DNA from: Psococerastis gibbosa
Lineage: Eukaryota > Arthropoda > Insecta > Psocodea > Psocidae
Length of the DNA stretch: 64,000 nucleotides
NCBI GenBank assembly: GCA_963971405.1
Contig: OZ020486.1
Location: 30,527,419 to 30,591,418 of the forward strand
Reading direction: 5' to 3'
Positions 16,750-43,014 of this stretch are shown piece by piece. A model generated the notes under the pieces. The model was given only the letters and a program-made list of their open reading frames with translations, was not told where the DNA came from and did no database searches. The translations under genes and the position numbers were made by a program. Each line of letters begins with the position of its first letter. Within the stretch, counting starts at the first letter, position 1.

Positions 16750-16885
16750 GGCGGGGATTCCACCAACGTCAATAGTTATAGTAAATGTTTTTTACTGGTA
16801 GCAGACATTTTTATACTGTCTAAAATGTCTGCTACCACGTCAAAAAACATTTACTATCACTATTGACGTTGGTGGAATCCCCGCC
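16750..16885. mobile_element. Palindromic MITE P1 (family P)
   Basis: A 136-bp near-perfect hairpin. Tips GGCGGGGATTCCACC / GGTGGAATCCCCGCC, with TTA after the right tip and ATA before the left. The copy-specific stem AACGTCAATAGTTATAGTAA is matched on the far side with one or two differences plus a small indel. The core TGGTAGCAGACATTTTTA..AATGTCTGCTACCA is shared with the other P elements. No coding capacity. Tip form and a TWA-type flank suggest a Tourist/Harbinger-like MITE. Confidence 0.85.
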
Positions 16886-17644
16886 TTAGGCATCGGCAGC
16901 AGCGATGTGCCCTCTAATGGCGTAAAGAATTATTTAGAAAAGTAGTCTAGGCTCAAAATAATACTTTTATTGGGTCTCGCTTTTAAGCGGGAGTTTGTTC
17001 GTACTTCAGTTAGTACAAATATTACTGAATTTAGGTGCGAATGCCTCAAATCATTCTGTATTATAAATAGTATGACCACAACGAATATGACCCCCGCCCC
17101 CAGCCTAAGAGCTGGGGCTGGCTGGCCCTTGTTTGTAGTTGGGCCAGTAGAGGTTATTTATCTACTGGGTTATTATACAGGTTTTGTATTATTGGACATG
17201 TCGTAACCTTAAGAAATCTAAGATAAGCCATTTGAACTCTCTGGGGCGGAAAAAAGACTGTCACTGAACAGTGAAGGAGCGATGTTGGAAAGTGTGGAGG
17301 AGATTCGAGTGTTGAGCAAGACGAATTGGGGGAAGGGGAGCCGGACAGTGCGGATTCGAGTCGCAAGGTGATTGATGGGCAACCCCCTCCTCCCCAAATA
17401 AGTCAGCCTTACACGAATAGTTTGCCCTAAATTAAGGCGAATTTACAAACTTTGCCAACCAACATTTTAATATGAGATTGTAAGAATCCTCGTGCATTCG
17501 TTTAACGATGATGCAAAGAGCGTACTACCGACCACGGTAGGATGATACTTGGAACACTTCGTTTATTCGAAAACATAAGCAGAACACCTAGTATATTCAA
17601 TTTAATATGTGTTTCAAATGTCATCTCATGGCGGTCGGGTAGTA

Positions 17645-17870
17645 GATGGTGGAGTGGTTAATGGGCTGAGTTTTACGACCCAGGGTTAACATCGCTCACT
17701 TTGGGATGTTGGGGTCAGCAACATGCCGCGTTTTCCTCGCACTGATGAGGGTGAAGTACCCATTCGTGCTGGCTGAAAATGTTTTTCTTTTATACCGAGT
17801 ATCGAACCATGACCTTTCGTTTCACTGTCTAGTTCTCTATCCACTAAACTATTCCTTGACCATAGATAAT
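17645..17870. repeat. Two inward-facing tRNA-like sequences
   Basis: Plus strand from 17648: TGGTGGAGTGGTTAATGGGC followed by a TTTTACGACCCAGGGTTAAC stretch, resembling A box, anticodon arm and T arm. Minus strand, about 17868 down to 17796: TAGTTTAGTGGATAGAGAAC (A-box-like), then CAGTGAAACGAAAGG and CATGGTTCGATACTCGG (B-box-like GGTTCGATACT). Neither has clean cloverleaf ends, so both are better read as tRNA-derived SINE heads than functional tRNA genes. Confidence 0.5.
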
Positions 17871-18789
17871 AGTATGTAAACCTGTATGCATTAAAAGCAC
17901 CAAAGCCGAGACCAAGATCTCTTTGTCTCATCTTGGTCTTGCTTTACAAAAATCATATCACTAATCCATGCACAGATTTATCTACTGAGTTCATAATGAA
18001 CATTAAGTTCTTATAATAATGATTGGCCCCCATAGCTGACGTAACCATGCTAAGCAAAAAGTCACTTCATTTGAGGAATTAATAATTGATACCACTCCCT
18101 AGGCGAGCCAACTAGGGATGAATGAAGCTCAAAATTTGAGATAACTACAAAAACTTAGAAGGAGCTGGGAGGAATGCGGGGGGAGGGGGGTGAAGATGAA
18201 GGGAAGCAATTGCGACCTCAGCGGGGAATATCCGTCAGCACTCAGCGTCTTAATTAAGCCAGCAGAAGACGAGATAAAAATGTAACACAAGATAAAAATG
18301 AAAGAGCAAACTAACTTGATCAAAGATGGCGGCGTATAATTGTGTTTGGGCAACTCACTAATTCACTTAATTCCCCCCAACCAATCTGATTTCTGCACAC
18401 ATCTGCTGATAAACAATGTCCTCTCATCGCAATTTCTGAGCTCAGTTGTTAATACTTTCTAGTTCACAATGGGAAAAAAATGTTATCTGCAGTATCTTGT
18501 TCAGAACATATATACACTAAGGGCGGATTCTAATATACTCCTTATAACGTTATTGTTAGTTTAAGGTAAGTTAGTCAATCGCCGGCATATAGTACGAACG
18601 GCATGTAGTACTTTATCGGTTGTTATGGGTAGAATCCCACAGGATCTAAGCCTTCATAATGGAAAAGGGTCATGAATGGCGAAAAAATGGAAGCGTCCAT
18701 GGTCCATTTCAGATACCACTATTCCAAATGCTAATCCTCAAGTCGGAAAAACTGAAAAACAACAGTATTAAAATACGGACAAAAACTTT
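17871..18789. other. No gene recognised
   Basis: AT-rich, with no domain or repeat shared with the rest of the window. Confidence 0.4.
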
Positions 18790-19170
18790 TTAAGTTAAGT
18801 TCTTTATGTTAGTTAGGGAGTACACATTTTAATTTAATTATAAGTGTCTTTCAAGCTTATTCGTGAATATTTTAAGGGTAGGGCTGTTTTTATATATTTG
18901 TATAGTATCTATTGGTAGGTTGTCATAGGTATTAAGAACGGTATATTTTGCCGATTCAGTAGTTCTGGTTGTGATTAGTTTAGTCGTAGTGAGTATTAGT
19001 ATTTGGATCTGGTGTTGTGATCGTGTTCAAACTGACTTTATAAATGGCAGTGCGGTTCTTACATAATAATTAAATAATATCATAGGGTAGGCTATGTTTA
19101 ATTTATGGCGATCAATTTTTTTAATTTTACATTGCTTGAATTTCAGTCCACAGTAAAGTTCTTGGCATCA
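18790..19170 (-). pseudogene. CR1-like LINE ORF2 C-terminal fragment, decayed
   Basis: On the minus strand, pieces in shifting frames give EHDHNTRSKY, then NRQNI/YTVLNTYDNLP-like residues, then IYKNSPTLKIFTN. The HNTRS motif followed by Y..LP..I is the CR1-type ORF2 tail, as seen intact in the element at 25.8 kb (HNHGTRSRSNL). Multiple stops and frameshifts make this an old relic. Confidence 0.55.
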
Positions 19171-20255
19171 AAACAACGTCAACAATTAAAAATACCTTAT
19201 GACACGATGTGTGAAACAGTCATTTCACTTGAATAGACTAAATATTTAATAAATTCTTCAGCAAATTAAATAAATAAAATTTGCTAGATTTCGGATTGCT
19301 AATTTTGTACGCCCATGTTCAATTAATGACGCCAAACGTCAAGGAAATGTCCAACGCCAAAAAAAACGCCAAACTGATGTATCACAGGAAACGCAACGCA
19401 TCTACAAGTAACTATCTAGGCATGCACTTTAAAGTATACGCAACATAATGCTACCCAATTGAATGACTACCTAGTACAACATAGAAACCACTTGAGCTCT
19501 TTCAAGTTGAAGTGGCTAAGGAGAAGTGACTTCTGGTTGAAGAATTGCGAAAAGCTTACACAAATTTTGCAGAATCTGAAGTGATTTCAAACTTTTTAAT
19601 TTTGGTGAACTCTGGGGAACCCATGGAAAATTGAGGAGTTTAAAATTATACAACTAGGAAAATTTTGAAACTAAGTTTGTTTGATTTTTTACAGTTACCT
19701 CATTTTGTGGGAGCGACTCTTTCCCTTTGGCAAATATTGGCGGAATTATTGGTTTGAATAAGTTACTCTTTGGCAAGTTTGTGGATGGTTACTGCATTGC
19801 ACAGAAACTATTTAACCACAGAAACTTTTTGTTTGGTTCATTTCTAACAGCACTCACTATACTATCAAAATAAATAATGCTTTCAAAGGACATAGAAATC
19901 TTTAATACATTTAAATGTTTCAATTTATCTATCCCTACATGTTTCTGTTGCTAGTGCAAGTACAATGTCATCTTTCTATTGTTTACCGTATCTTTAGGGT
20001 GGACTCGTGTGTAAACTCGCCTGAAGAATAACTGGACGGCACCGCAATGTTCTATTCCAGTGCACTATTACTTACCGAGACTTTTTTTTTATATTTTGGG
20101 GTACATTTTTATATATGCCAGGTGGCCTATTGGGCCCCCTACTCAATACTACTACGTAATAAATTTGCAAAACCTATACGGAATGCTCCTTCACACTCAA
20201 CAAGGAACAAGGAACTAGGAACTGTAGTGGCCATGCATCAGCGGATAATGTGACC
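19171..20255. other. No gene recognised
   Basis: AT-rich, with no recognisable coding or structural feature. Confidence 0.4.
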
Positions 20256-20360
20256 TGTAGTCATGTGCACATTTCAGGAAATGTGAAAGCGGACTTCCTA
20301 GCAAAAATGGGTGCCCACCTCCACCAGCCAAGGACCCAACAGTTACTCACGTGACTATCA
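20256..20360 (+). pseudogene. LINE RNase H-like fragment
   Basis: The frame SHVHISGNVKADFLAKMGAH resembles the final RNase H block of LINE ORF2 proteins (GH..I.GNE.AD.LAK.G), in which the ADxLAK segment carries the last catalytic aspartate. Only about 35 residues remain. It cannot belong to the CR1-like elements here, which lack this domain, so another LINE clade is implied. Confidence 0.45.
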
Positions 20361-20860
20361 GTGCGGAAAAGGATCTAAAGCACTCTTAGGCAAGCGGCGG
20401 AAGGAAGGAACCAAATATTAATTGCATTTGCAAGGAATAAAATGAAATATAAATTGTAAACTGTAAAGAGGCCTAATATAACGACGTTTTTGATTTCATT
20501 TCATAAAACATAAATGGATGAAAAGTCTGCCTAGGTACCAGCCTTGAGACTTCCCTGCCAAAATGCACCATTTCCGATTTAATTTTAATGAATTTATGGG
20601 GGTAGACTCCATAATAAATGAGCCAGAAGTGGGGAGTCACATAGTCTGATACGTTATGGGATGTGACGTAGGGAATAAAGGAGGGTTAGGGTATTGGATT
20701 ATACTCGCTGGATTACGAAAAAGGATTCCAGGATACTTACTCCCCAGACTGGAAAGGATCAGATCAACTATCGATTAAAGATTATGGAGAATTTTATATG
20801 TCGTACAATAAGTCAGGATTCCATACGGAAATATAGAAGAGATGGAACAATTGTGCCGCC

Positions 20861-21079
20861 ATAATAAATAATTAAATATACATAGACTCTTTTTCTACTA
20901 TTAAGCCAACCTAGCGGAGCTAGGGCTACAAAGCCCTTTCTTACACTGAACTAGGAAGACCCGAGACCGCCTGCTTTACATACCCTCCGAAACATGGCCA
21001 GAAAATGTAGCAAGTGTGGGACTCGAACCAACAACATTTCGGGTGAAAGCCGGAGACTGTACCACTACTCGAAATGTCC
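20861..21079 (-). repeat. SINE-1 copy D
   Basis: Near full length. Minus-strand head with GAGTAGTGGTACAGTCTCCG, GCTTTCACCCGAAATG, B box GGTTCGAGTCCCACACTTGC, then the body with GCCATGTTTCGGAGGGTATG and AAAGGGCTTTGTAGCCC. An AT-rich tail lies at the low-coordinate end. Confidence 0.8.
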
Positions 21080-21655
21080 TGACAATGGTTACTTTTTGCT
21101 TTCCAATTTATACGTAGTATAAGAAAGCTTTGTGATGGTCGAAATTTTCGATTCCGAGATTTCAACGGATTTACACGTTTTCAGGTCCCACGAACCCAAA
21201 AAAGTGGTTTTTACGAAATGTCTGTCTGTCTGTCTGTCTGTGCATCGATTTCCGGGCAAACTACTTCTGTGAAACCTTTCTATCGATGATTTCTACCTTC
21301 AGGCATGTTTTAGGTGTTAAATTGAGTAACGAAACCGGATAGGTTGCTTTCCCAAAGAAATATTTGGTTTTGCACAAAAAATTATTTTTTGAAAAAAATA
21401 TAGAAAATTCGCGTTCAAATGCATTGCGTGCCCTGCCATTATTGCTGTGTGGTAATTAATGTGTTGGTCTCACCTATCTAGAATTTATCTCGCTTCCAGT
21501 GACGTCAGGTGGACAACCCCCCCCCCCCCCCCCCGAGAAATCGGAAATTTAACCACTGGAACATTATTTACCATGAAATTACTCATATTCCCTCTCTGCT
21601 AATGTTGATAAGTTCGAAAGCATCTTCGAGTAAACTCGGACCGGTTCTTTACTTT
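21080..21655 (-). repeat. Dispersed repeat family D, copy 2 (inverted)
   Basis: Reverse-complement copy of 15817-16660 with an internal deletion. It keeps the terminal hairpin (TTGCTTTCCAATTTATACGT / AGTATAAGAAAGC at 21097-21131), a (CTGT)n run at 21222-21241, CACACAGCAATAATGGCAGG on the minus strand and an 18-C run at 21517-21534 in the position of the copy-1 G run. It begins directly after SINE copy D. Confidence 0.75.
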
Positions 21656-23298
21656 ATGGTGCCACCTGCCACCAACCAGAGTACGCCTTGAGAACTTCCA
21701 AACAACAACAATTCTCGCCTCATTGGACGAACAAGACCACCAGAAATTACAAAAATATCCTTAACGGGAGCGAATGACCCATCTCTCCTAAATAGGACTC
21801 ACATTTACGTTACCAAGAATTAACGGAGCAATTCTAAGAAGTGCTTTGAACTTTGGACATAGCCAGTAGTAGGATACCATATCCAACAAAAAGCAGTGTC
21901 TAAAATTAGCTTTTTGTTTAGCGTTGCTACACGAAAAATTAGCCAAAGGATTCGCAGGGTAACGTTGCGATAATTCCATGTTTTAATTATGAAAACACAT
22001 TGCTGTTTTTACTGTACCCTCGCTGAATTTCGCTACCGGAAGCAATTTCCAGCGCTATAAAAATTATACTCCTCTACGCTTAGCAAGCGCTGACTACAGA
22101 GCAAAAAATTCACCTTCAGCTTCGGTTCTTTGGTGAATTTTTTTGTGATTTTGCCAAAGGTACTCGCAGTACAGTTCATGAACGTTACAATTTCACCGTC
22201 ACTTAACACCCAGCATTTGTTTGCGGAACGTCAGTATTAAACGTCATAATAATTAAGAAGAAATGCCAATCAGACGGGTCACTTCAAAATTTGATACATT
22301 GAATTATTTTATTACTCATAATTTAATAAGAAAGGTATTAAAAATTAAAAGCGCCTCATTGGTATAGATAACTAATTAATACATTGAATCATAAGAAGTT
22401 TTTGATTTTTGGCGAAGTAATATTTTTTGTAAAACTCTACTTCTTATTTTTTGAACCGAAATTAGAGAAGCAAGAAAAATTTGGACTTAGCTCGATTCTA
22501 ACCCACGATCTATACCTTGCCGAGGCATCGTGTCATTACTTACACTTACACTAGGGCTTGTGTATATGTTAAATACGGTAAATTGTCTTATTGACTATTG
22601 TATTAGGCTTGCTGGATGAAAAATTACTTCATACACCGCCAACAGGCAACACCAATCTTAACTGGCAAAAACCTAACAACATTACTAGAAATTATGCGAA
22701 GAACTCCAATTCTATTTAACTTTTAATTATATTCTGTAGAAATCTATTTCGAAATTAGTCATACAACAGTATAAGTACCAAGTTTGTCAATTATGGATAC
22801 TAGATTAAAGTCTTCTCAGCAAAGTCAACAAAGAAAGCGATAAACGTCTCCAATTTGTTACAACTTTGAAAATCAAATTAAACCCGACGGCGACGGATGG
22901 GCTCATTTATTCTCGCTGGTACTCGAGGCGAACTCGAGGGCTTGTGTCAATTAGTACCGAATAAGTCCAACGAATAATCCAAATGGAAAAGTTACCCTAT
23001 ACTTTTTTGGTTTCATTAGTCCGTTCGAATATCATCCGTTTTGCAATATAATGTATATCGGAAAATAGAAAATCACGAAAAAAATTAGACAATATGGGAC
23101 TCCAACCCTCGATCTATACCTTCCTACAACTACACACAACTATCTAACTCAACAAGTCTGCGGGCTACCTAATCGCATGAAGGGATATCAATGTTTAGCA
23201 TGAAATCATTGAAATGGACTTAGGTTGAAACCTCCTCGGGACAATATATCCGAAAATCAAAGAAAAACTGGATAGTGAGGGATGCGAACACACGATCC
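21656..23298. other. No gene recognised
   Basis: AT-rich. Phrases at 22490-22515 and 23098-23125 (CCAACCCTCGATCTATACC type) look like decayed tRNA-like B boxes on the minus strand but are too degenerate to call. Confidence 0.4.
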
Positions 23299-23507
23299 AT
23301 AAATAAATAAATAAGGACTTTTTTTGTTCTATTACAAAGCCAACCTAGCGGAGTTAGGGCTATAAAGCCCTCTCTTACACTCAACTAGAAGGGACCGCCT
23401 GCTTTACATGCCCTCCGAAGCATGGCCAGAAAATGTAGCCAGTGTGGGACTCGAACCAACAACCTTTCGGGTGAAAGCCAGAGTCCGTACCACTACTCTA
23501 CATGTCT
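23299..23507 (-). repeat. SINE-1 copy E (best preserved)
   Basis: Read on the minus strand it has the tRNA-like head with A-box region GTAGAGTAGTGGTACGGACT, arm CTTTCACCCGAAAGG and B box GGTTCGAGTCCCACACTGG. The tRNA-unrelated body follows (CATTTTCTGGCCATGCTTCG, GAGTGTAAGAGAGGGCTTTA) and then a TTATTTATTTATT tail. This copy defines the family at about 205 bp. An internal pol III promoter is inferred. Confidence 0.9.
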
Positions 23508-25390
23508 TGGAGCTTTGTGTTACCTCGTCCCAGAATGAGGACGATCTTAGATGAGTGTGACTGGAAGCAGAAGAAGTGTTGAAAAATCAGAAGAGACATA
23601 GGAGGGAGTGGAGGGGGCTCGCTGTTACACCCGGGCAACTGCAGCTGATTATTGATGATGTTGAATATACAAAGGCCACTTCTATTCTTTATTAAACCAC
23701 TTAACTTAGCTCAGGGAGAGAGGGCCTTATTTCCCCATGACCCCGAAGTCTACGCTCCGCCCCCTAACGAAAATCCTAGATCCGGGAGTGTCTGGTCTTA
23801 CAGAATAGTAAGCACAGAAACGTTAGTAAGATAAATGATTCCGGCTATCGCCCTATCAGCTTATACTTGCACGACATTCCCAATAGCAAAAACAAACCGC
23901 TGGCAAAAACAGCGTGATGTGTTGCTGAGGGCTAACTGGGACCTGAGAATAGCTGTGCAGGTATCCCTACCCGTAAATTACACGGTCTTAACCGCTACTG
24001 CTGACAAACATAAGAAGGAGCAGTTTGTGTAGGTTTGAGAATGGAGAGCACCGGCATTTTAGAAAGTAAATAAAGGAAATCTTAGGCAGGGACGCTTTGT
24101 TTATTTGAAGAGGACATGAATAATCTAAGGCCTCTGTAAAAAGGAATTGTTGCTGATCCCGGCTGACTCAAGACACTTGTTTATGTTCACCATTTTAACC
24201 CGTTTGCCCTAATTCTGAAGCCGTATTTCTAATCATTTGTTTGAACGTAATTATTGAAAGTTTTATGCGGGTCGGTAAATAACTTACCCTTTTTATCCGG
24301 GGGTGTTCTTCTTTTTATTAATTGAAAATCTAATTGTTGGCAGTATTTATTTTTATATTCTTAGGACGTTGGACATAGTTACATTGTATTGAATTTTGTA
24401 GAAGGAAGACTTGTTTTTACACTGACTGATTTGGTCAACAGTTGCATAAAAGAATGTTTTCCATAATTATTAAGGTAGCACAGCCTACTGTGTTGCAAAA
24501 AAGTTTTTTATTTTTATTATCTTTAGGATACGGATATTGTTATATTGTATGACATTTTTCAGTCGGGTTAATAGGCAGCTTTTGGAGAAAGCTTGCAGTT
24601 TTTATGAATTTTTCATCTGACGACGTCTATAAGCTTGCGACTGTGAAACGAAAAATAACTTAATTTCGGCAAAAATACATGACTTTTATGTTTACAAAAA
24701 ATTTGAAATCTATCCCTTAATGCCTTTTATATAAAAGTACACAGAAATGAAAATGTTTTAATCCTACACAGAGCATACCGGAGTGTTCGATAACTAACCC
24801 CGGGTGCTTGAAATAAGGGATGATTTTTGTATTGAAATTAGGGGGGGGGGGGCTATGAAAATGGACATGTCCCCCGATGGATATTGACGTATTGACATTC
24901 TTCCAATTATAAACCCCCTCCCTATTTTCGTTCCACCATTCTCTTCAAAACACCAGCCAATTTTTATTTATATTACGTGCAGATATGTGGGCAGCCTAAT
25001 TTGTCCACGTTATGGTATATACGAGGGTGAATGAAAGCCTTTTTTGTTTAATCAGCAGCTGATCATTGTTTTTATCGGTGAAGGGAATTTTTCATTTTGC
25101 GGGAATGGGCATTTAATTACTCTTTATTTATTTTGCTGAATAATTAGTGTTACCTATTGTGCTTAGTCTGGACATACAGTAAGTTATTGCACATTCTTGT
25201 TGGCAGCAGAGAATTGGACTAATTTACCGCCGGGCATCGGCCCACCCGACCACTATGGATGCCTTACTTTCACCAGTAAGAAAAACGCGGCTGGCAGTCA
25301 TGTTGCTGACCGCAACACCACAAATAGAGAGTGGTCAAGAGATTGGTCAAGAGAGACTATTTAACAAAGGGTTAGTTGGACTTATATTTC
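23508..25390. other. No gene recognised
   Basis: AT-rich with a 12-G run at 24841-24852. Two adjacent 60-65 residue open frames at 23652-24032 have no recognisable domain. Confidence 0.4.
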
Positions 25391-25620
25391 CTATTTATTA
25401 TATATATTCATTAGGGTTGCATCAGGACTCAACCATCAGTCCTTCGCACTAAGCCTGATGATGGGAGTAGCACTCACTCCCGAAGCGTCAACCAATTCCC
25501 CTGACAGCGGACTATTAACACAACAAGGAATGCAAGTCCAACCAACCCTTTGTTAAATAATATTACACCATTGCATTAACCTACACCAATAAACCTCAAT
25601 GGGATGTTGTGATACGGCGT
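25391..25620. repeat. Dispersed repeat family E, copy 1
   Basis: Contains the perfect hairpin AGGACT..AGTCCT followed by CTGATGATGGGAGTAGCACT / CACTCCCGAAGCGTCAACC. It shares ACTCCCGAA(G/A)CGTCA, TTCCCCTGA.A..GG, CTATTAACACA.CAAG and AGTCCAAC with 41563-41745. Family not identified. Confidence 0.55.
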
Positions 25621-25806: not shown

Positions 25807-28770
25807 CTATTCAAAAAACTCTTGAATGTTGTACAATGTCCTTTGAATAAGGTAACACTTCAAACTCCTTCTGAACTCTGCCAAGTTCTTGGCTGTCTTT
25901 ATTAAATTGGGCAGTTTGTTATATATGCGCACACCGATAAAAGACGGCTTACATTCGTACCGCCGGGTTTTGTGTTGCATGGCAACCAAGTTTGACCTTG
26001 ACCTCGTTCCATGATTGTGGACATGTTCTACCCGCAGGAAACTGCTTAAATTTTCGTGAATATACACAGCCACGTGCAAAATATACAGGCTAGGTACCGT
26101 TAGTATGCTCAGGTCAATGAAGTGCTGTCTACAGCTCTCTCTTTGATTAATTCCCACAATGTACCTAATAGCTCTTTTTTGGAGTTTAAAAATTCTGAGC
26201 AGGTTGCCAGCACTAGAATTGCCCCAGAGCTCAATCCCATAGGTAATGTGGCTTTGAATTAGTGCATAATAAACTGAGATAGCTGTAGCAGCACCACATA
26301 CTTTAACAATGTTCCTTAGTACAAACAAACCAGAGCATATTTTGGTTGAAATGAAGTCAATATGGTCAACCCACTTTAGATGAGAATCAATTTGCATGCC
26401 CAGGAACTTAACGCTCGATTCGTTATTTAGCATATTCTTCTCCACAAAAACACACGGTTCCGGCTGGTTGTTCGTTTGCCTCGTTTTGAATACCATTATA
26501 GAAGTCTTTGTGGAGTTAACCATCAGATTGTGTGTTGCTAGCTCCTGGGTAAGCATGTTGATCTTTACAAACATGGAGAGCTCAAGGTCGCTAGGTGTAG
26601 GAGCAACAGTAAGACATGTTGTGTCGTCCGCATATACAAAGTTATCCTTTACAATGCTATTAATATAGACTAGGAACAAAAATGGCCCCAATATAGAGCC
26701 CTGCGGGACACCAAATGTAACATCCATCAAATCTAGTTCAGGTAGATGCATAGAAGTATTATTGTCAGCCTCAATATTAGTATCAGGGAGTGATACAAAC
26801 TATTTTCTATTCGTCAGGTACGAATGCATCAAGTCGTAACCCTTCCCTCGAATCCCATAGTTTTCAAGCTTTTTCATGAGCAACCCTCGATCCACACAGT
26901 CAAAAGCAGCTGTAAGGTCGAGAAAGGTAGATGCAGCAGCATTTCCAGCTTCCATCTCCTCAATAACTTTTTCAACCATAGCAGTAACAGCATCTATAGT
27001 AGACCTACCCTTAAGGAATCCAAACTGATTAGGTGATAGTATCTTGAGTTTTATGAAGAATTTAGACAATCTTTCAAGAATTAACGTTTCATATACCTTG
27101 CTAATAGAGGAAAGATTTGAGATTGGTCTATAATTTTTAGCCTGATCACGATCTCCTTTTTTATAGACCGGAGTGACTTTGGCAATTTTTAATTCATCAG
27201 GAAAGATACCCTGCTCCATGGACAGATTCAAGAGGTGGACAAGAGGTTTGACAATGGAAGGTGCAACTTTCTTCAAAAGGTTGTTAGAAATGTAATCGTA
27301 TCCCGAGGAGTTTTTGTTCTTAAGATTGTGAATGCAAGTAAAGACTTCTTCCTCAGTAACTGGATGCATGAATATGTTTTTGTTTATTACACACTCTGTA
27401 ACAGAGCCCATGGAGTGACCACCTCGCAGACCCTCTATAGCAGATAATACATTATTAGGAACCGATAGAAAATATTTATTAAATATCGAACAAGCTCTGA
27501 TTGAATCAACAACCTGGCCAGAGTCATCCCTGATTTCAGCCTCTCTCCTAATGTTTTTATATCTCCTAGTTTCATTGTTAACGATTTGCCAGGCGCACTT
27601 GACCTTGTTGCCTGAGTTAGCTATATTTTTATCGTAACAGTGCTTCTTATATGTATGGAGTCTACTCGTGTACTCCTGTTTTAGCAATCCTAGTCTATCA
27701 GTAGACTCAGCAGTTCCAAGTAACCTGCAACTGTCACTGAGTTGAATAATTTCAGCCTTAAGTTGACGAATATCATGATCAAGCATTGAAGAATTTTTGT
27801 TTTTGTTTAAGGGTTTCATACTCATCAGTCGAAAACATAGTTGAAAAACACAAACAATGGTATTATGAAAAACACTATAGGCCTCCTGTGCATTTTGACA
27901 CTGCAGTATCTCTGTCCAGTCCTTTTCTGTTAACATCCTTTGAAAATCGGTAATAGATTCTTCAGACATGTTATACCTATAGATATTTAATGGTTTCTGC
28001 TTTTTTAAAGAATACATTTGGAAGTAGGTAGCATCATGATCAGAGAGACCAGTTTTGAGAGTCCCTGTTCTATATAGGGATTCGTCTATGTTCGTAATGA
28101 CACAGTCAATAGCCGAAGCTATTGTATCAGTGATACGTGTAGCTACCGTGAGAGCATAATGAAGGTTATATATGACCATGCATTCCAATAGTCTCCTCCT
28201 TTTATAGCTGTCCTTGAGAGAACAAATGTTAAGGTCCCCAATCACAATGATGCCCTCTTCCAAATTCGACAAGTGTTCAAGGAGTTCGGTTAGTAGATTA
28301 ATTGACTGATCTACATCAGCTTTTAGATCAGAGGGAGTTCTATAAACAGTAACAACAATAATTTTCTTATAATTTATGGAGATATAAGCAGCTGCCGCTT
28401 CAAGTATTTTCTCTTTACAATAAGAGCTGATGTCAATCGGTCTGCAGTCCAAAAAGTACTTATCTAAGACAAACAAGCCCACACCACCACCCCGATTGCC
28501 AACTCTGCAGTATGATGAAATCAATTGGTAGTTATTTACTCCATAGTGTTCGACTTCATACACATATAGGGCAAGCTCAGTTAGACAAAACAGGTCAGGG
28601 TTAAAGTCTTTCAGAACCGACTCTAATGGAGCTTTTTTATTCTCTGCAAAACGCATATTTTGATTAAGCACCGTTAACACCCTACGTTCAGTATTATTGT
28701 AGGCGTCAACAGGCTCCCGGTTTATGTCCAATTTAGGTTGGCAGTAGTGCGCTGCATGTTTTTTAGAAAA
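25807..28770 (-). pseudogene. LINE ORF2: endonuclease and reverse transcriptase, one internal stop
   Basis: The protein would nick target DNA and prime reverse transcription of the LINE RNA. Numbering from the TTG at 28731 (975 codons to the final stop): endonuclease motifs TE (51-52), GDLN (165-168) and SDH (230-232). RT motifs: VTPVYKKGDRDQAKNYRPIS from about 519, motif A STFLDLTAAFDCVD (about 601-614), GVPQGSILGP and the YADD box at 700-703. C-terminal motifs KFLGMQIDSHLKW and HNHGTRSRSNL. A TAG at 26800-26802 (codon 644) falls between RT motifs A and B and would remove the YADD active site. No ATG precedes codon 26, and the frame opens at 28770, overlapping the end of ORF1. Reinitiation or a lost start are both possible. 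CR1-like by layout. Confidence 0.88.
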
Positions 28771-32012: not shown

Positions 32013-32174
32013 GGCGGGTATTCCACATACGTCAATCGTCAATGAAAAATTGAAAAATGACGTAACAATGACGTAAATTGACGTGGTAGCAGAATTTTTA
32101 GTATGTCTTTAATGTCTGCTAAAACGTCATTCTTCAATTTTTCATTGACGATTGACGTATGTGGAATACCCGCC
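32013..32174. mobile_element. Palindromic MITE P2 (family P)
   Basis: Tips GGCGGGTATTCCACATACGT / ACGTATGTGGAATACCCGCC with TAA on the left and TTA on the right. The copy-specific stem TCAATCGTCAATGAAAAATT is perfectly repeated in the opposite arm. The core keeps GGTAGCAGA.TTTTTAG.. and ..TTTAATGTCTGCTA, slightly decayed. The left arm has about 20 extra bases (ATGACGTAA duplicated) just before the core. No coding capacity. Confidence 0.85.
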
Positions 32175-32342: not shown

Positions 32343-32405
32343 GGCGGAGTTTCCACCGACCTCTCATTACAGAATGCAAAGATATTGACGTGGTAGCAGA
32401 CATTC
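32343..32405 (+). mobile_element. Half palindromic MITE P3a (left arm and half core)
   Basis: Begins TTA|GGCGGAGTTTCCACC, continues CTCTCATTACAGAATGCAAA, then ATTGACGTGGTAGCAGACATT, and stops a few bases before the next element. This is a left arm with half the standard core. Its stem resembles that of P3b, which immediately follows, so the pair probably arose by duplication or nested insertion with loss of the right half. Confidence 0.7.
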
Positions 32406-32413
32406 AAGAATTA

Positions 32414-32660
32414 GGCGGGATTTCCACCGACCTCTCATTGCAGAATGCAAATGACATTGACGGAAATTTGAATTTTTCTTTTTATAGAAATCTATTAAAA
32501 TGTTTGTACTTAACATATCCCATGACGCCATTTTTTAATTTTAGTTTGTTTGTTTGTGATTTAACTTCATTGATCAATTTTAACTATGGCATAGAGTAAA
32601 GCAAAAATTTCCGTCAATGTCATTTGCATTCTGCAATGAGAGGTCCGTGGAAACCCCGCC
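32414..32660. mobile_element. Palindromic MITE P3b (family P, replaced core)
   Basis: A 247-bp element with perfect TTA duplications at 32411-32413 and 32661-32663. Tips GGCGGGATTTCCACC / GTGGAAACCCCGCC. The stem CTCTCATTGCAGAATGCAAA continuing TGACATTGACGGAAATTT is matched exactly on the other side. Instead of the usual TGGTAGCAGACA core it has a roughly 130-bp unrelated AT-rich loop, so the core is not needed for recognition as a copy. Confidence 0.85.
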
Positions 32661-32663
32661 TTA

Positions 32664-33714: not shown

Positions 33715-33754
33715 TCGAAAACGCGGGAAGGATGAGTTTGAAACTGACCTACGC

Positions 33755-33895: not shown

Positions 33896-34416
33896 CGGCC
33901 ACGACGCAAGTCCCCTTCTCATGGTGCAGTTAGTGTGGCACTTTGATATTTAGTGATTGTATTATGTTTCTAATTAATTAATAAATACTCAATACTCAAT
34001 TGCCATTTAAATTTAGTTGTATTGTGGTACAAGTGATAACTGCAGTGTTTTCAGTTGTCTCTGTCAAATCAGGTCCCGTTCAACAGTAAATGGAGTCTAA
34101 TAAATTATATTGATGGATTGAAGGCCGTCAAGAGCAGGGCCAGTTGGAGCGGAATAAGCAGAGCGGAGATTGATGGCCGATGGAGTTGATGGATGGTCAA
34201 ACATTCGCTGCTTCTTGGAAACTGCCCTGCTAACTCCCCCCGGTTTTGTTAACCCTGACAAACAAGGGGAATCGGAATAGACGGAAAATAATTTTAGCTA
34301 GAATTATAATAATATTTGTCTTTAATGAAAAAAAAACAACGACAACAATGTTCGCAGCGAATATTAGGGTTAAATGCCCTCTCTTACAATTATTACAATT
34401 AACTGTTTAAATTCAA
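33896..34416. other. No gene recognised
   Basis: No coding or repeat signal beyond low-complexity AT stretches. Confidence 0.4.
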
Positions 34417-34625
34417 GACATGTAGATTGTAGAGTAGTGGTATGGACTCCGGCTTTCACCCGAAAGGTTGATGGTTACATTTTCTGGCCATGCTTCCGAG
34501 GGCTTGTAAATCAGGCGGTCCCGGGCCTTTCTAGTTGAGTGTAAGAGAGGGCTTTATAGCCCTAACTCCGCTAGGTTGGCTTAATAATAGAACAAAAAGT
34601 ACTTCTTATTTATTTATTTATTTAA
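34417..34625 (+). repeat. SINE-1 copy F
   Basis: Plus-orientation copy: ACATGTAGATTGTAGAGTAG head, GGCTTTCACCCGAAAGGTTG, body CATTTTCTGGCCATGCTTCC, AGTGTAAGAGAGGGCTTTAT, GGTTGGCTTAATAATAGAAC and a TTATTTATTTATTTATTTA tail. The B box is damaged by a deletion of about 16 bp between GGTTGATGGTT and ACATTTTC. Confidence 0.85.
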
Positions 34626-34784
34626 AATAGTATGATAACAGACTGTAAGTAATATTCTCATTCACACAACCATTCTAGCTCATTCACTCACTAGGTATTG
34701 TTCGATGCCTAAAGGTCAATTGGGTATTTCGAGTAGGTTTACCTGAAAATTTTTATTGATGTGGAAGAACGTATTTCAGTGGGC

Positions 34785-35225
34785 ATTGAGTTCCATAATG
34801 AGGAGGATTATAATGTGAATCATTCTATATGGTATAGAGGGATGGACGTTAACACAAGCTATGGAGAACAGAATAAGAATCAGGTATACGGACGAATGCT
34901 GTGCATATCCTGGAGAGATTGTGTCCCTAATGCTGAGGTCCTGAGGTGAACGGATACAGAAGTCGAGTTGCTGCTGAAGGTTAAGAAACGGAAACTAACA
35001 TACTGTCATGAGGATTGAAAAGTATCGTCTTCTGCGAGTAATAATCCTAGGGAAGATAGAAGGACTGAGGGCTCCCGGCAAAAGAAACACATTCTGGTTT
35101 AATAACCTGAAGCACTGGTCGGGCAAGAGCACGACTTCCCTTACCAGAGCAGAAGTCACCAAGGTACAACCCGCCATGATGATCGCCAATCTTCGTTAGA
35201 AGAGGCATTTAAAGAAGAAGATAAT
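34785..35225 (+). pseudogene. LINE ORF2 C-terminal fragment (MMIANLR type)
   Basis: The first frame contains YGRMLCISWRDCVPNAEVLR. After frameshifts, KVKKRKLTYCHED and then MRIEKYRLLRVIILGKIEGL, RAPGKRNTFWFNNLKHWSG, KVQPAMMIANLR and a TAG stop. This succession (RMLRISW.D.V.N.EVL, KRRKL.Y, EKYRLL..I..GKIEG.R.PG, A.MIANLR) is a widespread insect LINE C-terminus. At least two frameshifts make it a relic. AAGAAGAAGA-type sequence follows the stop. Confidence 0.8.
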
Positions 35226-37073
35226 GAGAAGATGAGTGATCAGTGATCGGTAGAATTTATGTACATAGTCAAATTCCACAAAGAATATATATATAGTAGG
35301 GCTATTAAAAAAGTAGCATGGCTTAGAAGAAATACTCTTCTACATTTTGACATATGATATGTGGCCGTCACTAACTGTCATTGATTGGCCAAGGTTTTCA
35401 AACACTTTATTCCTCCAGGCGCCAACACCAACCGATTTTTCCACAAATCAAATTCGATAGTTGTGACCGATGGGTGTCGTAGAATAATATACTGTACCAA
35501 ATTTTGGAGTAGCATTTCTGATAAGGGGCATGATTTTTTTTCTACGATATGCAGTATATACTTTATGTGATGTTTGATTTTGTATACTTCAAGGCATTTC
35601 CCCGGCCTCTGAAGGCAGACATTTACAAATATTTTGTAACAAATTATGCGTAAGAATTTTTGACGAAATAGATTAATTACTTGATCCAAACTTAGAACTG
35701 CATAGTAGCAGCAAAGACCCTAAATTTCAAAAGTTGCGCGGCGTACTTGACTTGGTGATTGCGACGTCAGTTTCCATTTGGGAAAGATGACGCTGGTCGC
35801 TAATTCTAAAATGGTTCCGGTGGTGCGGTTGAAGGGCTTTAGCTGAGTAAGCACGGTGATGAGGGACATTGTCTTTACAAAACCGGCGTAATCGTTACGT
35901 CAACCCCCCCGCCCCGGAACCCACCACTTTTACCGCTTAATCCCACGGATGTCCTCTCGGTTGTTTCAGGTACTGCACCTACTACCGAGGGTGGCTCCTA
36001 AAATTGCCAAAATCCGAAAACTATATGAAATGAGTGTGTCACTTTGATTATTCTGGCGGAAGCTCAAAAAGCCACGGAGTTGCAAATGGAGTACGATGAT
36101 CGCAAAGCACTTTCCGAACATGAACTATTTGGAGGTTTTCCATTGGATGTATTCTGGAAACGACCAAAGTATCAGTAAGTTCTCCGTCAAATAGTGGTTT
36201 TAGGGCCGTTCCCGCCAACCTTACAAATGTCTCGGCAGAAAATACATATTTCAAGTTTCTAAGTCTCCCTTAATTTGAAGGAGGGGGGGGGGGGCTATTT
36301 ATCACCCTATACAGTTTAAAGATGAACTCAATAAAAGATTCTCAAAAAATAAAAATATTATTAAAAATTTGCAATATTAACAGACATTCCACATAATGAC
36401 TTTTAAATACAGTGCACAGCCAAAACGAGAACGGAAAATTCAAAATCCACCTATAAAAGAATATAATTTCTAAGATCTAAGATCCCCCATCTTTGACTCA
36501 GATTGTAGTCTCTCTTTAGCTTTGGGGATGGCATTGTATTTATATATATATCCTTTCCACATGAGATAATGACGTGACTTACTCGTAAGCTCTAGGAAAT
36601 ACTTATCGCAACCAAGAGAGTCATTTTAGTTTAGTTTCTGGAAAATCCCCGCAGGCTACCAGATCTGCAAAATGAAAAGCTTTTACCGCAATATAATAAT
36701 AGAGGTTTCCCGAAATGGGCGAGAAGTTTGTTCCATCATCGTGTTATTGCAAAAGGTTAAGGTTTAGTCAAAGTAACATAACAGTGCTATTAAATTATAA
36801 ATATGAGGAAGATTCGGGGTTCAAACCTAGTTAGTGCTTAGGTCATGTCATATAAATAGCCTTATAGAGCTATATTGTTAGCCTTAAAAGTAGCATTACT
36901 CCATAGACAACATCATTATTTTGTTCTAAGAAAGCACTTATCGCTTGAAGTCTTAGGTTGCATCCACACTACAGTATGCAAATAGCCGATACAATGTAAT
37001 AGAGATCAGTGAGCGGTCTCTGCTAAAAAAAAAACTTTCTGCAGTTTAGAAAGCGCGTAGTACTTGGCACAAA
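35226..37073. other. No gene recognised; one decayed repeat
   Basis: 35280-35410 matches the 2200-2840 repeat block (GAAATACTCTTCTACATTTT, TGGCCGTCACTAACTGTCAT). A 12-G run is at 36283-36294. The minus-strand 68-residue frame at 36048-36254 has no recognisable domain. Confidence 0.4.
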
Positions 37074-37243
37074 TCGACTTCGATGGCCAGGTGGTAACGT
37101 GCTTGCACTTGTGCGAACCCCGCCACACAATCGGAGACCTGTCGTAACTTAACACAGGTACTAACCTACAGAGGCGACTGAAGAGGTCAATCTGATACAT
37201 CCATCTAATTGTTTGTATGCGATATTAACCTTTAAAAAAAAAA
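37074..37243 (+). repeat. SINE-2 copy 1
   Basis: Starts TCGACTTCGATGGCCAGGTG (A-box-like TGGCCAGGTGGTAACG), then GTGCTTGCACTTGTGCGA, GGAGACCTGTCGTAACT, GAGGCGACTGAAGAGGTCAA, TTGTTTGTATGCGAT and an A-rich tail. It shares this order with 37978-38170 and 50610-50796. A tRNA-like origin is suggested by the 5' part, but no clean B box is seen. Confidence 0.75.
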
Positions 37244-37865
37244 TCACAATGTTTTTTAGTCTACTGAGATATGGAGACCGAAATGTAATGCGCTAATACA
37301 CAATCGCATATCTAAAGATATTGGGTTAAAGTTATTATATTGGGGGAGAGAAGACCACGAAAAAAGAAGTAATCTTGTATTTCCTTTCCTTGTTTTCAAT
37401 GAAAATAGACACATAAAAAGAAGAGTTAGATAAAGGCAATGCTGATGACAATATGAGACAAAAGGGACTGAAAGTAACATGGTCGTGTAACTCGCTGAAC
37501 TAGCAAGTAACTTACAGGACTTTACCTCAAATGACATTAGACGCGAGAAGTAATAGAATTTGCACTTAATTCAATGTAAAATTGAATTATTATTAACTAG
37601 CAGTTGACTATTTAAGGCTAACGGCCTTCGGGGTCGTTATCAAATAGAATTAGGGAGGAACGGTAATTACCAAGTTTGGATAATTACAATGCCAACTATC
37701 TTATTCTTAATAACGGCCACGCCCATCATAACTCCAAATTATTGCTTCTTACCCTTTCCTTTTGCCCTCAAAATCAATAAATCTACATTGACACCAACTT
37801 TCAGGGGAAATGCTAAAGTCGAAAGATTTTAACTAAGATTTATTCCAACTCTGTCAGTATCAGTT
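37244..37865. other. No gene recognised
   Basis: The 93-residue minus-strand frame at 37256-37537 is not a known domain. Otherwise AT-rich non-coding DNA. Confidence 0.4.
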
Positions 37866-37976
37866 TGCGACTTCGGCGGAAAGATGGTAGCGTGCTTGTA
37901 CTTGTGCGAGTCTTACACACTTTGCGGTCAGAGACTCGGAGACGTGTCGTAACTCGAAACCTATTAGGTTACTACT
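37866..37976 (+). repeat. SINE-2 copy 2 (3'-truncated)
   Basis: GCGACTTCGGCGGAAAGATG, GTAGCGTGCTTGTACTTGTG and GGAGACGTGTCGTAACTCG match SINE-2. It ends before the GAGGCGACTGAAGAGG part and is followed immediately by copy 3. Confidence 0.65.
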
Positions 37977-37977
37977 A

Positions 37978-38170
37978 ATCGACTTCGATGGCCAGATGGT
38001 AGCGTGCTTGTACTTGTGCGAGTCTCTACACGCCATGCGATCGGAGACGTGTCGTAACTCGACACAAGTACCTATTAGGTAACTTAGTGAGGCGACTGAA
38101 GAGGTCAATCGGATACATTCATTGAATTGTTTGTATGCGATTAACCTTTAAGAAAAAAAAAGAAAAAAAA
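37978..38170 (+). repeat. SINE-2 copy 3
   Basis: Full-length copy: TCGACTTCGATGGCCAGATG, GTAGCGTGCTTGTACTTGTG, CGATCGGAGACGTGTCGTAA, GAGGCGACTGAAGAGGTCAA, GAATTGTTTGTATGCGATTA and an A9-G-A9 style tail ending where MITE P4 starts. Confidence 0.8.
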
Positions 38171-38171
38171 A

Positions 38172-38310
38172 GCGGGGTTTCCATTGACCTCGTTTGTGAA
38201 AGCTACCGTGATATTGAAGTGGTAGCAGACATTTTTAGACTGTCTTTAATGTCTGCTACCACGTCAATATCACGGTAGCTTTCACAAACGAGGTAAATGG
38301 AAACCCCGCC
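38172..38310. mobile_element. Palindromic MITE P4 (family P)
   Basis: Tips GCGGGGTTTCCATT / AAATGGAAACCCCGCC, followed by TTA. The copy-specific stem CTCGTTTGTGAAAGCTACCG is matched perfectly in the opposite arm, and the whole stem shows only two or three differences. The core TGGTAGCAGACATTTTTAGA / CTGTCTTTAATGTCTGCTACCA is the cleanest in the window. It sits between the A tail of SINE-2 copy 3 and an internal SINE-2 fragment. Confidence 0.9.
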
Positions 38311-38380
38311 TTAGCGAGGCGATTGAAGAGGTTAATCGGATACATTCAATAAATTGTTTTTACGCGATTACCCTTTAAAT
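38311..38380 (+). repeat. SINE-2 copy 4 (3' part only)
   Basis: Resumes within SINE-2 immediately after MITE P4: TTAGCGAGGCGATTGAAGAG, GATACATTCAATAAATTG, TTTTTACGCGATTACCCTTT. The corresponding 5' part is not adjacent on the left of P4, so P4 either inserted with a deletion or marks a recombination junction. Confidence 0.65.
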
Positions 38381-38533
38381 AATTAAACAAAAGTTACAGT
38401 TACTTTGTTATGCTAAGGGTGGGTCCCATCACAGTTTGAATAGTCTCGGTAAGAAATACTGCACGGCTCCGCCATGTATTTGTATATGGCTGGGCCGTTC
38501 AATAATCATTACTGTTTGTTTCGTTGACACAGG

Positions 38534-38730
38534 CAAGGGCGGATCCAGCGAAAAATTTAGGGAGGGAGTCACATGTTGTATGTAAGTATAAAAGTTAATT
38601 TGTTTGGTGAAAAGTTGGGTTTTTTTCAATTTTTTTTACTATCTTATGGATTTACCCATTGAGGGGGCGGGGGGTTTCATGACACCCCTCAACCCCCCTC
38701 CCCCCCCCCCCGTGGAGCCATCCGCCATTG
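38534..38730. mobile_element. Non-autonomous hAT-like element, 197 bp
   Basis: Ends CAAGGGCGGATCCAGC and, inverted, CAATGGCGGATGGCTC. Flanks GACACAGG (38526-38533) and GACATAGG (38731-38738) are an 8-bp target duplication with one difference. A 12-C run lies near the right end. No coding capacity. Confidence 0.75.
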
Positions 38731-38738
38731 GACATAGG

Positions 38739-39849
38739 GTGAAGTTTCTTTTTAATAAAACTCTAACAGACTCCTATGAGTGGGATCGGCGAATTCAAGG
38801 TCACCCTTACAGAAATTTTGAAGAGCAACGACGATACTTGAAACTACGAGAAATTTGACGTGAAATTTAAAATCCATATACATATTATATTTTCAGATTA
38901 ATTAATTTTAAAAATTACACGATGCTTCTTATAATTCTTATAAATTTATTATTTAACTTATATTGCACGAATTTGTTGCAAAGTTTATGTACTGTACTTT
39001 AATACTAATTAGTAGTGTATTTTCAAGAAATTCTCAATTACTAGAATAGAATTGTGCTTTTTTAGTTCACCTCAGAAACCCTGGAAACAGTCGCCCTGAA
39101 GCTGACGCAAAGGCAGCAAGGTTATTACAATGCACCATGGTGGTTGGTTTACCTGTCTTATAATTTAATTATTTATGGATATATTTTTATAAGATTTCTT
39201 ACGGGTTCGTAGTTGCCCGGAAAATCTGTAGAATCTGCTTTATACTCTGAACGTACCAAATTTTTATTTTTTGTGTTTAATAAGTGGTAAGTGTAATTTC
39301 GGCAGCATTAAAAATTGGTATTTGACACATTGACAGCAGGAAAGATTGTTTGGAATTAAGGCAAGAAGAAAGCGTTTCTACTACTTTTTGGCAATGTTAG
39401 TACCTTCGATAACCTCATTGCAATGTGTTAATCTGATTTTGTCGGGACTGTTCGAAACCGTTTTTGCTGACTTACAGCCGATGCACGAACGCATTTATAG
39501 AGCACTAACGAAATATAGAGCATAAGTGCCATGAATTTGATCATGGGGGGATGTCATATTCCTCACAGCGTCCTTAGTTACCATAGTAATGGCCTTAAAC
39601 TATATTTTTTATTTGATTTGAATAAGTTGCCGTAAATTGAAATAGGCCAATTTTCCTGATGATTTTAAAAAGATCTAAAAGTACCAAAAAAAAATTCCCT
39701 AAAGTGCTTTAAAACGAGTGATTTTGAACCAACATTTTCACATTTTTCTCTGACGGTTTATTATCTCCGGGGCCCGGAACCCCCCCCCCCCCCTTTCCCA
39801 CGTATGCGTCCCGATTTGAAGTTCTCAGAATCTGGTCACCTTAGGTATA
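38739..39849. other. No gene recognised
   Basis: AT-rich. A 14-C run at 39780-39793 is followed by CCTTTCCCACGTATGCGTCC. No exon chain. Confidence 0.4.
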
Positions 39850-39879
39850 TCCCGTACCTGTGCCGCTACACACGACCCG

Positions 39880-40035
39880 GGGCATATGTTTGTATGCCCC
39901 AAGACGACTACTATATGCATAGCTGCTGACGTATTTGAAGCTAACGACAAAGCCATCCAAGCATCCAGGTAGGCGGTAGCTACCTATTGGACTGCAAATT
40001 AGCGCGACGTGGATGCGCTAAGTAAGTAAGTAGCA
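39880..40035 (+). pseudogene. RTE-like LINE 3' end with (TAAG)n tail, decayed
   Basis: FVCPKTTTICIAADVFEAND followed by KAIQAS aligns by eye with the better copy at 51935 (LLVCPRLDEAVSHADLSEAN / DKAIQAATFW). It then ends in a GCTAAGTAAGTAAGTAG repeat. The shared terminal (TAAG)n in both copies marks the element end. 5'-truncated relic. Confidence 0.6.
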
Positions 40036-41275
40036 ACGAGGCTGAGCCGTATGTAGCTTGGTTTAATCAGTGGTGTAGCCATAGAGGATGCTAGTGGGCT
40101 GGATGCCAATAATTGATTGGCTGCTGCTTTCACCCCCCCCCCCCCGCCTCCTCCTGCCTCTACCACCACTCATACCAATCTTTTTCATGAAATTTTCAAG
40201 CTTTGTAACGTTTTGAATTTTCAATATAGTCAGAGTCTCTATTAACCAAGGGCTATATAGACGGGCTCCAGCTCGGCTCTGCACACAAAAGCAAATAGGG
40301 GGTCTACGATATATGTATATCGCTACGCTATAGGGCTACAATAAATTTGAGTACTTTTTGGTGTTATTGAAGACCCACTTTCATAAATTCTCAACATTGG
40401 ATGCTACTATACAATACAATACCAAGCAAATTTTTTGGATCTCATCTCTTCAGCAATACGACAGATATATCCGTCGTATTGATATATCAAGAAAATATGA
40501 GTAACCCAATGTTGCATTGTTTTCAGTAGCTCCTCAAGAGTGATATCAATATCCGCGGCTTTTTAGCTCAAGCAGCGACCAATTTCTAGGGTGTGTTCCC
40601 AGTTCAATATGGAGCAAAAATAATCCATAAATCGTGCCACCGAAAATGCACCGTTATCGAGCTAAGGGCGGATTAAGGGTGAAATGTCGCAAATGTGCAG
40701 AGTTCCAGGAAATTGCCCCCTTCTCAGAAAATGGTTGACCGATTGCCGATCTAAGCATTGAATATAGAATCATTAAATTGCCCATCAGGATATACAGTAT
40801 CAGTAAGATTCTGTGGCCCTAAAGTCTAAATTTGTTCGGTAACGTTGTTTGAAATATAGTTTGATTTTTTCTGTGTTTTAATAATGTTTCTGCTTTTTTT
40901 AATGCATTCCTTCAGCAAACAGTTTCCACTTTCTGCTTTAAGCCAAAAAACTAATATATCGACATTTTTTCTGTTTAAAATAGAAAGTAGAATTTGTTTG
41001 CTGAAGGAATGCATGAAAAAGCCAGAAATATTACAATATTGAAGCACAAAAAACTCAACGATGTTTTTAACAACCATCGAGTTTCCAAAAACATTTTGAC
41101 TTTAGGGCCACAATTGATACTGAAAACTAGATTTTCTCAGAGACTTTCTGATATAGCCTATCCTGATGGGCAATTTTATGACTGTCCATATTCAATGCTT
41201 ATATCGGCAACAAATCGACAGACAGACTTTCTGTGGAGGACGCTTTTTCCTGGAATGTATCGGGAGTAGGCGCGC
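40036..41275. other. No gene recognised; possible lone TIR
   Basis: CAGTGGTGTAGCCATAG at 40068-40084 resembles a hAT-type left end, but no right end with a matching 8-bp flank was found. A near-mirror pair, GCATTCCTTCAGCAAACAG at 40903 and TTTGCTGAAGGAATGCATG at 40996, with TTTAGGGCC phrases outside, suggests another old inverted-repeat element at about 40815-41110. Confidence 0.4.
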
Positions 41276-41562
41276 CAAGGCGCGGATCTACGGGGGGGGG
41301 GCTATGGGGGCTATAGTACCCCCCCCCCCCCCATTAGAGTCCTCAAGACCCCACTATTTCAGTCCTATTTTTCACAAATCTTCTCACGGGGGAGACCCCC
41401 GGGCCCCCCTTGTGGTCGATTGTATTACTTACCTATAATATAGAACCCTTATTGCTCTGAAAATTGCGTAAAACCTCAATACTTCAGCCCTATTTAAAAA
41501 AAAAAAAAAATCGAAATTTAATCTCAGCCCCCTCCCTGGTCTCATTCTAGATCCGCGCCTGG
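41276..41562. mobile_element. Inverted-repeat element containing the GC-rich tandem unit
   Basis: Left AAGGCGCGGATCTA and right TAGATCCGCGCCT form a 13-bp perfect TIR. The interior carries a 10-G run, a 14-C run and the GC-rich unit (ACCCCACTATTTCAG, GGGGGAGACCCCCGGGCC). It interrupts repeat family E (GGGAGTAG | element | GAGCACCCACTCCCGAAACG). No clean 8-bp duplication, so superfamily is uncertain; hAT-like by TIR form. Confidence 0.6.
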
Positions 41563-41745
41563 GAGCACCCACTCCCGAAACGTCACCCCGTTCCCCTGAT
41601 AATGGGCTCCTAATTGTTCGAAGACCTGCCTCTATAGACTATTAACACAGCAAGCGATGCTAGTCCAACTAACTTGTGTTAAATAGTTGGGGCACAAAAG
41701 GCCAATGAGGCTTATATGCATAGCACGATACGCTACGTATGTATC
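41563..41745. repeat. Dispersed repeat family E, copy 2
   Basis: Shares CACTCCCGAAACGTCA, CGTTCCCCTGATAATGGGCT, CTATTAACACAGCAAG and GTTAAATAGTTGG with 25391-25620. Its 5' portion is separated by the 41276-41562 insertion. Confidence 0.5.
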
Positions 41746-42470
41746 CCCAATTAAATAAATAAAAACAAAACACAAATTGTAACTACAGTAAAAAAAAATC
41801 GTTTTCACTTAATCAAAGGGTAGCTTATGCAGGACTTAATATTGAACGCATGGATTGCTCTCTTAGACCCACTCAGCCAGGTATACAGACCTGTGAAAAG
41901 GTAATTCACACCAGCAGCGAAAAGGTGTATGAGTAATGGGGTGAAGTATAAAAGCAGAAGGGGTAGCTGGCTGGCGAGTTCTTTTTGTTGAAAGGTTTAT
42001 GAGCCCCGCTGATTCCCTCTTTGAATTGTCTCTAATTCATTCTTATTGTCCCGAAATCCCATCTTCATTTTCTTCTCGAGCTCTGATTTTCGACTTTTTT
42101 CCTTTTCCCTCATTTATTAACGGGTTTTCGGGCTTCAGTGGAAGGTCTCTGAAAGGTTACTGAAATAGATTTTTTTTGGGTGAGTTTTGTGAACTTTTGT
42201 GCGCGAGTTGAATCAGAAACTTCAGTCCAAATAAATAGAATAGAAACAACCTGAAAATGTATAACCAATGCATAGCTTATGCATAGCAAGGTTTACTTAC
42301 ATATGAAAACCAACTTTTTCCACAGTAAATATGAAATTTGAAACCAAGTATGCAAAAGACCAAGCAACCAGACTCGTGGCGACTTTTCGAAACGTTGATC
42401 CCACTGAAAGGCAAGCTGGTAAGACTAGGCGTTTAACGACTAACTTACCCCGGGAATTATTTAAACCTTA
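41746..42470. other. No gene recognised
   Basis: No coding or repeat signal of note. Confidence 0.4.
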
Positions 42471-42746
42471 GGCGGCAATTCCACCGGCGAATTTACTTCA
42501 TTTGTGATTTTTTGTTTGTTTTGTTTTAAGGAGACTAATAGTCTCAGACTATTATGGAGATACTTAACTTATCTATTACAAATTAATTTATAATATGGTA
42601 GAGACTTACTAATTATGTCTGCTACCATATTATAACTTAATTTATAATAGATAAGTTAAGTATCTACATAATAGTCTCCTTAAAACAAAACAAACAAAAA
42701 ATATTAAATCACAAAATGAAGTAAATTCGCCGGTAGAATTGCCGCC
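42471..42746. mobile_element. Palindromic MITE P5 (family P, long stem)
   Basis: The longest family member, 276 bp. Tips GGCGGCAATTCCACCGGCGA / CGCCGGTAGAATTGCCGCC, TTA on the left and CAA on the right. The stem runs about 120 bp per arm (including GTTTGTTTTGTTTTAAGGAG and TACTTAACTTATCTATTA) and is repeated in the other arm with small gaps. The centre retains the family core as TGGTAGAGAC..TATGTCTGCTACCA. The stem sequence is unrelated to P1-P4. Confidence 0.85.
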
Positions 42747-43012: not shown

Positions 43013-43014
43013 TA

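Follow-up and report, generated by a model that had tools for sequence, protein, structure and literature searches.

Palindromic MITEs of probable PIF/Harbinger type in Psococerastis gibbosa and the possible founding of their subfamilies by arm copying

Described palindromic elements and the hairpins of the window

The Angel elements of teleost fish, which Izsvak et al. reportedly described in 1999, are said to be short and palindromic, with a hairpin-based mode of amplification suggested for them. In Anopheles gambiae, 6 of 32 clusters of MITE-like repeats grouped with the MITEs are described as palindromic (PMC3212995); like the elements reported here these are palindromic repeats of an insect, and the cited passages contain no arm-by-arm analysis of them. 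The PIF/Harbinger MITE mPing makes a 3-bp TTA/TAA target duplication (PMC2836001). Our elements resemble this Tourist-like element, as presented in the cited passages, in being short, non-coding and of high copy number, with terminal inverted repeats, a TTA/TAA duplication and Harbinger-type transposases in the genome; unlike mPing, they are almost wholly palindromic with an apical core. The CMITE elements of Acropora corals comprise several MITE families with a common conserved internal part and differing other parts (PMC2872659). The likeness to our elements lies in the internal part being kept while other parts vary among families, but CMITE, on the cited passages, has TTAA duplications, a link to piggyBac and variable ends, whereas in our elements it is the stems that vary, between conserved tips and a conserved apex. 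Finally, template switching homogenises the arms of inverted repeats (PMC8604942; PMC8794818). As in the founding event proposed below, one template there gives rise to both arms, although the setting in those passages is yeast coding DNA and RNA genes and not the founders of MITEs.

An earlier note on this DNA knew of no described family with such an architecture, which was too strong a statement given the published passages on palindromic MITE-like elements (PMC3212995) and on MITEs with a shared core (PMC2872659). A side-by-side analysis of the arms of a palindromic MITE was not found in the cited passages of PMC3212995, PMC2872659, PMC2836001, PMC8604942, PMC8794818 or PMC12628747. Overall we are dealing with a large palindromic MITE family.

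The window, by which we mean the whole 64,000-nt stretch of contig OZ020486.1 that was analysed, contains five hairpins where the earlier note had placed them, none of which is assigned a strand. The first (16750-16885; 136 nt; flanks ATA/TTA) is a palindromic MITE of subfamily A2 with an intact core in both arms, and its stem is read as AACGTCAATAGTGATAGTAAATGTTTTTTGACG in the right arm. The second (32013-32174; 162 nt; flanks TAA/TTA) belongs to subfamily F, has a degenerate core with two mismatches in each arm, and has its stem in common with the element at L021:7129-7279. A palindromic MITE with a D-type stem (38171-38310; 140 nt; flanks AAA/TTA) again carries an intact core in both arms, though its left target duplication is unrecognisable. 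The element of subfamily H (42471-42746; 276 nt; flanks TTA/CAA) has the core in one arm only, and its unlike arms are common to other copies. Thus the palindromic core that had been ascribed to these four elements is intact in both arms of two of them. The remaining hairpin (32414-32660; flanks TTA/TTA) is a J-type palindrome with no core at its apex. It is a real hairpin, but not the standalone fifth element that it was taken for: it is part of a 318-nt composite (32343-32660, plus strand) that also includes a tip at 32343 and a core at 32391-32402, and in which an outer arm and core are followed by the J-type palindrome, with TTA on each side.

Allowing one mismatch at most, the tips GGCGGNNNTTCCA have 16 matches in the window, where 2.24 are expected, and 11 of the 16 lie inside the five elements. 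The inverted repeats listed within the hairpins measure 36-65 nt, with a complementarity of 90-98%. Near-perfect agreement of the arms in each copy, as the note had it, fails for the outer 70 nt of the 42471 type. An Rfam scan of the window at gathering thresholds gave no match. Adjoining the 42471 element, at 42807-43130, are other inverted repeats with arms of 103 nt (93%) and 87 nt (95%) that have one left arm in common, in a sequence where no GGCGG tips are seen, while nested imperfect inverted repeats at 40770-41181 (44 nt, 82%; 55 nt, 84%; 32 nt, 84%) are apparently a further palindromic repeat. Judged by eye, a 640-codon open frame at 46535-48457 resembles a hAT-type transposase, and open frames of 314 and 643 codons at 25807-28731 resemble a non-LTR retrotransposon.

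Abundance, sampling and class

We searched the 409-Mb assembly (68 contigs), using reversed patterns as controls. Perfect TWA-flanked tips number 10,655+10,626 (control 0+3), and the exact core pair is matched 2,264+2,288 times (control 0+0); since this pattern is palindromic, these matches correspond to roughly 2,300 copies. The stems, which had been thought private to each copy, recur as well. With up to three mismatches, and controls of 0+0 in every case, the 16750 stem is found in 558+584 arms (1,142), the 32013 stem in 1259+1265 (2,524), the 38171 stem in 92+90 (182) and the 42471 stem in 227+250 (477); the 32414 stem is found in 19 arms at 11 loci within the 318 kb of sampled sequence. 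Subfamilies with common stems and shared tips are what the note had named as grounds for giving up its reading, and the stem counts reveal just such subfamilies. Their private look arises only from the sampling of five subfamilies in a single window. The 38171 element illustrates the effect of sampling: of the 69 elements sampled, the most similar to it is 0.91 identical, yet the genome matches listed contain 41 exact arms, its own included. No donor of any of the five stems was found outside the elements in the sampled 318 kb at up to six mismatches, all 70 matches (among which related stems can count under more than one pattern) lying just inside a tip.

Our sample consists of 81 elements of distinct sequence, recognised by their tips and arm similarity at loci that were chosen on contig C1 for their exact matches to the core, in the surroundings of these matches, and in the window. 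Two false matches (window 41239 and L020:7047) were removed before the 69- and 81-element, 50-copy and 40-copy counts. The duplicates L007_1452, L015_1452 and L005_868 were excluded from the 50-copy nearest-arm count and the arm tree. L038, a duplicate of L006, is present in the 81 elements, the 50-copy count, the tree and the E-type comparison, but it was excluded, as was L005_452, from the 40-copy and consensus comparisons. Subfamilies in the E-type, 40-copy and consensus comparisons were assigned by eye, and ten sampled copies with no clear partner were omitted.

Three further observations concern the genomic setting of the copies. At G000:C1:39143085-39143162 the arms of a 38171-type copy are separated by 46 nt, where about 78 is usual, and the copy probably lacks most of the core. 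Between 3.04 and 3.81 Mb of the same contig, nine tips of one type follow each other on one strand, spaced about 57-130 kb apart. L006, L007, L015 and L038 have flanks in common, which together with this tip series suggests that segments were duplicated or that the MITE sits inside a host repeat.

The class of the elements can be read from their ends and flanks. Flanking triplets are equal in 46 of the 81 elements (a count that retains a few duplicated loci), compared with a mean of 22.6 and a maximum of 34 in 2000 shuffles, and 37 of these 46 are TTA/TTA or TAA/TAA, as for a 3-bp TWA target duplication; against this, where TWA stands on both sides, 12 of 49 elements disagree at W. A TTAA duplication of the CMITE/piggyBac type was not seen, the flanks being mostly TTA or TAA in a 3-bp register. 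The terminal inverted repeats are conserved in the high copy number given above, and the elements (136-318 nt in the window, up to 428 nt in the sample) have no room for a transposase. Harbinger-type transposases are present in the genome, with at least 150 scored PF13359 matches among 220 candidates (best E 2.8e-45). Many of the PF13359 matches listed lie in open frames of 375-384 codons, and many of these have equal scores, suggesting a recent amplification of autonomous elements.

Our conclusion is that the hairpins are quite probably non-autonomous palindromic MITEs of the PIF/Harbinger type, with TWA duplications and GGCGSNNNTTCCA tips, forming many high-copy subfamilies that were founded by arm copying and then underwent ordinary spread and decay; this degree of confidence applies to the class and the history taken together. 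The subfamilies share tips and, mostly, the apical core. A Harbinger transposase acting in trans very probably mobilises them.

Symmetry at the founding of subfamilies

Differences between subfamilies fall on both arms at once. Among the four subfamilies with at least four copies (B, 6; A1, 4; A2, 9; C, 6), the consensus sequences differ by 85 symmetric changes and no one-arm change, and within each consensus the two arms pair perfectly (0 of 60-61 columns differ). This means that the founders of B, A1, A2 and C were near-perfect palindromes with new stems. Over all 55 pairs of the 11 subfamilies there are 597 symmetric differences, 119 one-arm differences and 13 other columns. It is important to note that both sets of counts pool subfamily pairs, such that the events are not independent, and that the 119 one-arm differences speak against the explanation we prefer.

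That explanation is a founding event which would put the sequence of one arm into both, whether by a template switch, by snap-back repair or by inverted duplication of one transposon end; ordinary transposition would then spread the founder, and each arm would decay separately. We propose only tentatively, and as something short of an even chance, that subfamilies arise repeatedly in this way, with one arm copied into both by snap-back or template switching between fixed ends. If they do, hairpin renewal would be a general engine of MITE diversification, one that erases the decay of arms, mints stems and builds nested hairpins.

The nested hairpins are a family of 374-396 nt. In all 12 sampled elements both arms run from the core through the spacer TTCAAGACTTA (up to two mismatches) into a J-type palindrome, beginning with its tip. 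All 12 have mirrored junctions (TTA ... TAA), while plain insertion would give a direct TTA ... TTA, and this favours the copying of one composite arm into both. The mirrored junctions may, however, go back to a single event. Alternatively, they may result from an insertion that hit a palindromic CTTAAG apex and duplicated 2 bp. The nested family may have originated by arm copying, as proposed for the other subfamilies. The composite of the window has the same junction but a single outer arm: 32343-32413 is one outer arm and core, including the spacer TTCAAGAATTA, and the J-type palindrome follows. The window junction also occurs at L009:721-1032 and L004:716-1024 with different outer stems, and in all three composites the 3-bp flanks outside the two ends match, which suggests that composites move as units. 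We had considered L009:721-1032 as a chimeric element, but rejected this, as it is a composite like that of the window. At L031:6523 the inner end of one arm is core while that of the other is J-type sequence.

Of the earlier suggestion that both arms derive from one template between fixed ends, then, the part that concerns individual copies fails (see below), while the part that concerns the founding of subfamilies is supported by the consensus differences of B, A1, A2 and C and by the mirrored junctions.

The main rival is independent assembly, with a different one of several related autonomous elements supplying the end from which each palindrome was built, in which case the symmetric differences would reflect different sources and not hairpin renewal. 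The middles of A-type and C/D-type stems are barely alignable, while their tips and core are alike, and the genome holds several transposase classes, both of which speak for independent assembly. Yet it would have to recreate the apical core that is common across subfamilies, and between stems such as GAAAGC and GATAGC, which are single symmetric changes apart, there are unlike-armed copies (2 among the best 100 arms). We consider independent assembly unlikely, though not negligibly so.

Less probable again, and in our judgement improbable, is selection for a well-paired hairpin, acting on excision or on an RNA, by which ordinary compensatory changes would have made the founders symmetric. The perfect pairing of the consensus arms in the four best-sampled subfamilies is what such selection would produce; however, subfamilies with unlike arms have been amplified too, among them the H type, E (consensus arms differing by side in 3 of 61 columns) and F (5 of 56). 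The consensus arms of D5 also differ by side (6 of 52 columns), F and D5 being represented by two copies each.

Arms within and between copies

The earlier note offered, as one of two readings, that the arms are rewritten as a pair, be it through template switching, conversion or hairpin-templated repair, and such rewriting would take place in individual copies, during transposition or later. Its reason was that the arms of one copy seemed to agree with each other beyond those of other copies. Across 40 copies from 11 subfamilies, the two arms of a copy are 3.78 events apart, arms of the same subfamily 4.42 on average and arms of other subfamilies 14.1. In 26 copies the own arm lies closer than the subfamily mean, and in 14 it lies farther away, an excess that pairwise rewriting would explain, but of which age differences or some conversion could be the cause. 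In 35 of the 40 the own arm is farther away than the closest arm from another copy, the latter being the smallest of several distances. When 50 copies were compared irrespective of subfamily labels, a nearer arm was found elsewhere for 39, even though the sample is tens out of thousands, and two were tied. The own arm was nearest in only nine, which might be counted for rewriting; one of the nine is the 38171 element, with its many exact arms in the genome. Own arms are sister tips in just 7 of the 50 copies in the arm tree. To a first approximation, arms of different copies in a subfamily are about as alike as the two arms of one copy.

Similar results came from 33 paired copies of the 38171 subfamily, drawn from the best 100 arms by mismatches, such that diverged arms are under-represented. 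Own arms differ at 1.12 of 32 positions and the arms of different copies at 1.38 of 32, and one-arm changes outnumber symmetric ones by 37 to 5, four of the five being variants of the GATAGC stem type. Among the matches listed, the 38171-type copy at C14:24955062 does have one symmetric G-to-A change in both arms, as rewriting would predict. Taking the change counts, the nearest-arm count, the arm tree and the 40-copy comparison together, none of which lends support, we reject per-copy arm conversion.

A further line of evidence comes from one-sided differences that copies have in common. In the E type (three copies) own arms are 4.7 events apart and same-side arms of different copies 1.7. Over the outer 70 nt of the 42471 (H) type, again in three copies, own arms are 0.75-0.80 identical and same-type arms elsewhere 0.86-0.96; by an eye count, none of 54 exact arms of the 42471 stem genome-wide has an exact opposite-strand partner nearby. 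In four copies of the nested family the inner tip reads GGTGGCG in one arm but GGTAGC in its counterpart. The tree of all 50 copies shows no more grouping of arms by side than shuffles do (38 changes, reached by 127 of 500), as expected if most founders were symmetric; side-specific inheritance is visible in particular subfamilies only. Since one-sided differences are common to copies in these subfamilies, the arms are not rewritten copy by copy, and pairwise rewriting, largely refuted by these results, is in our view very improbable. Unequal arms thus pass through transposition without being re-matched, and such shared one-sided differences, beside the symmetry of founders, make the family a natural record of how palindromic MITEs arise and renew.
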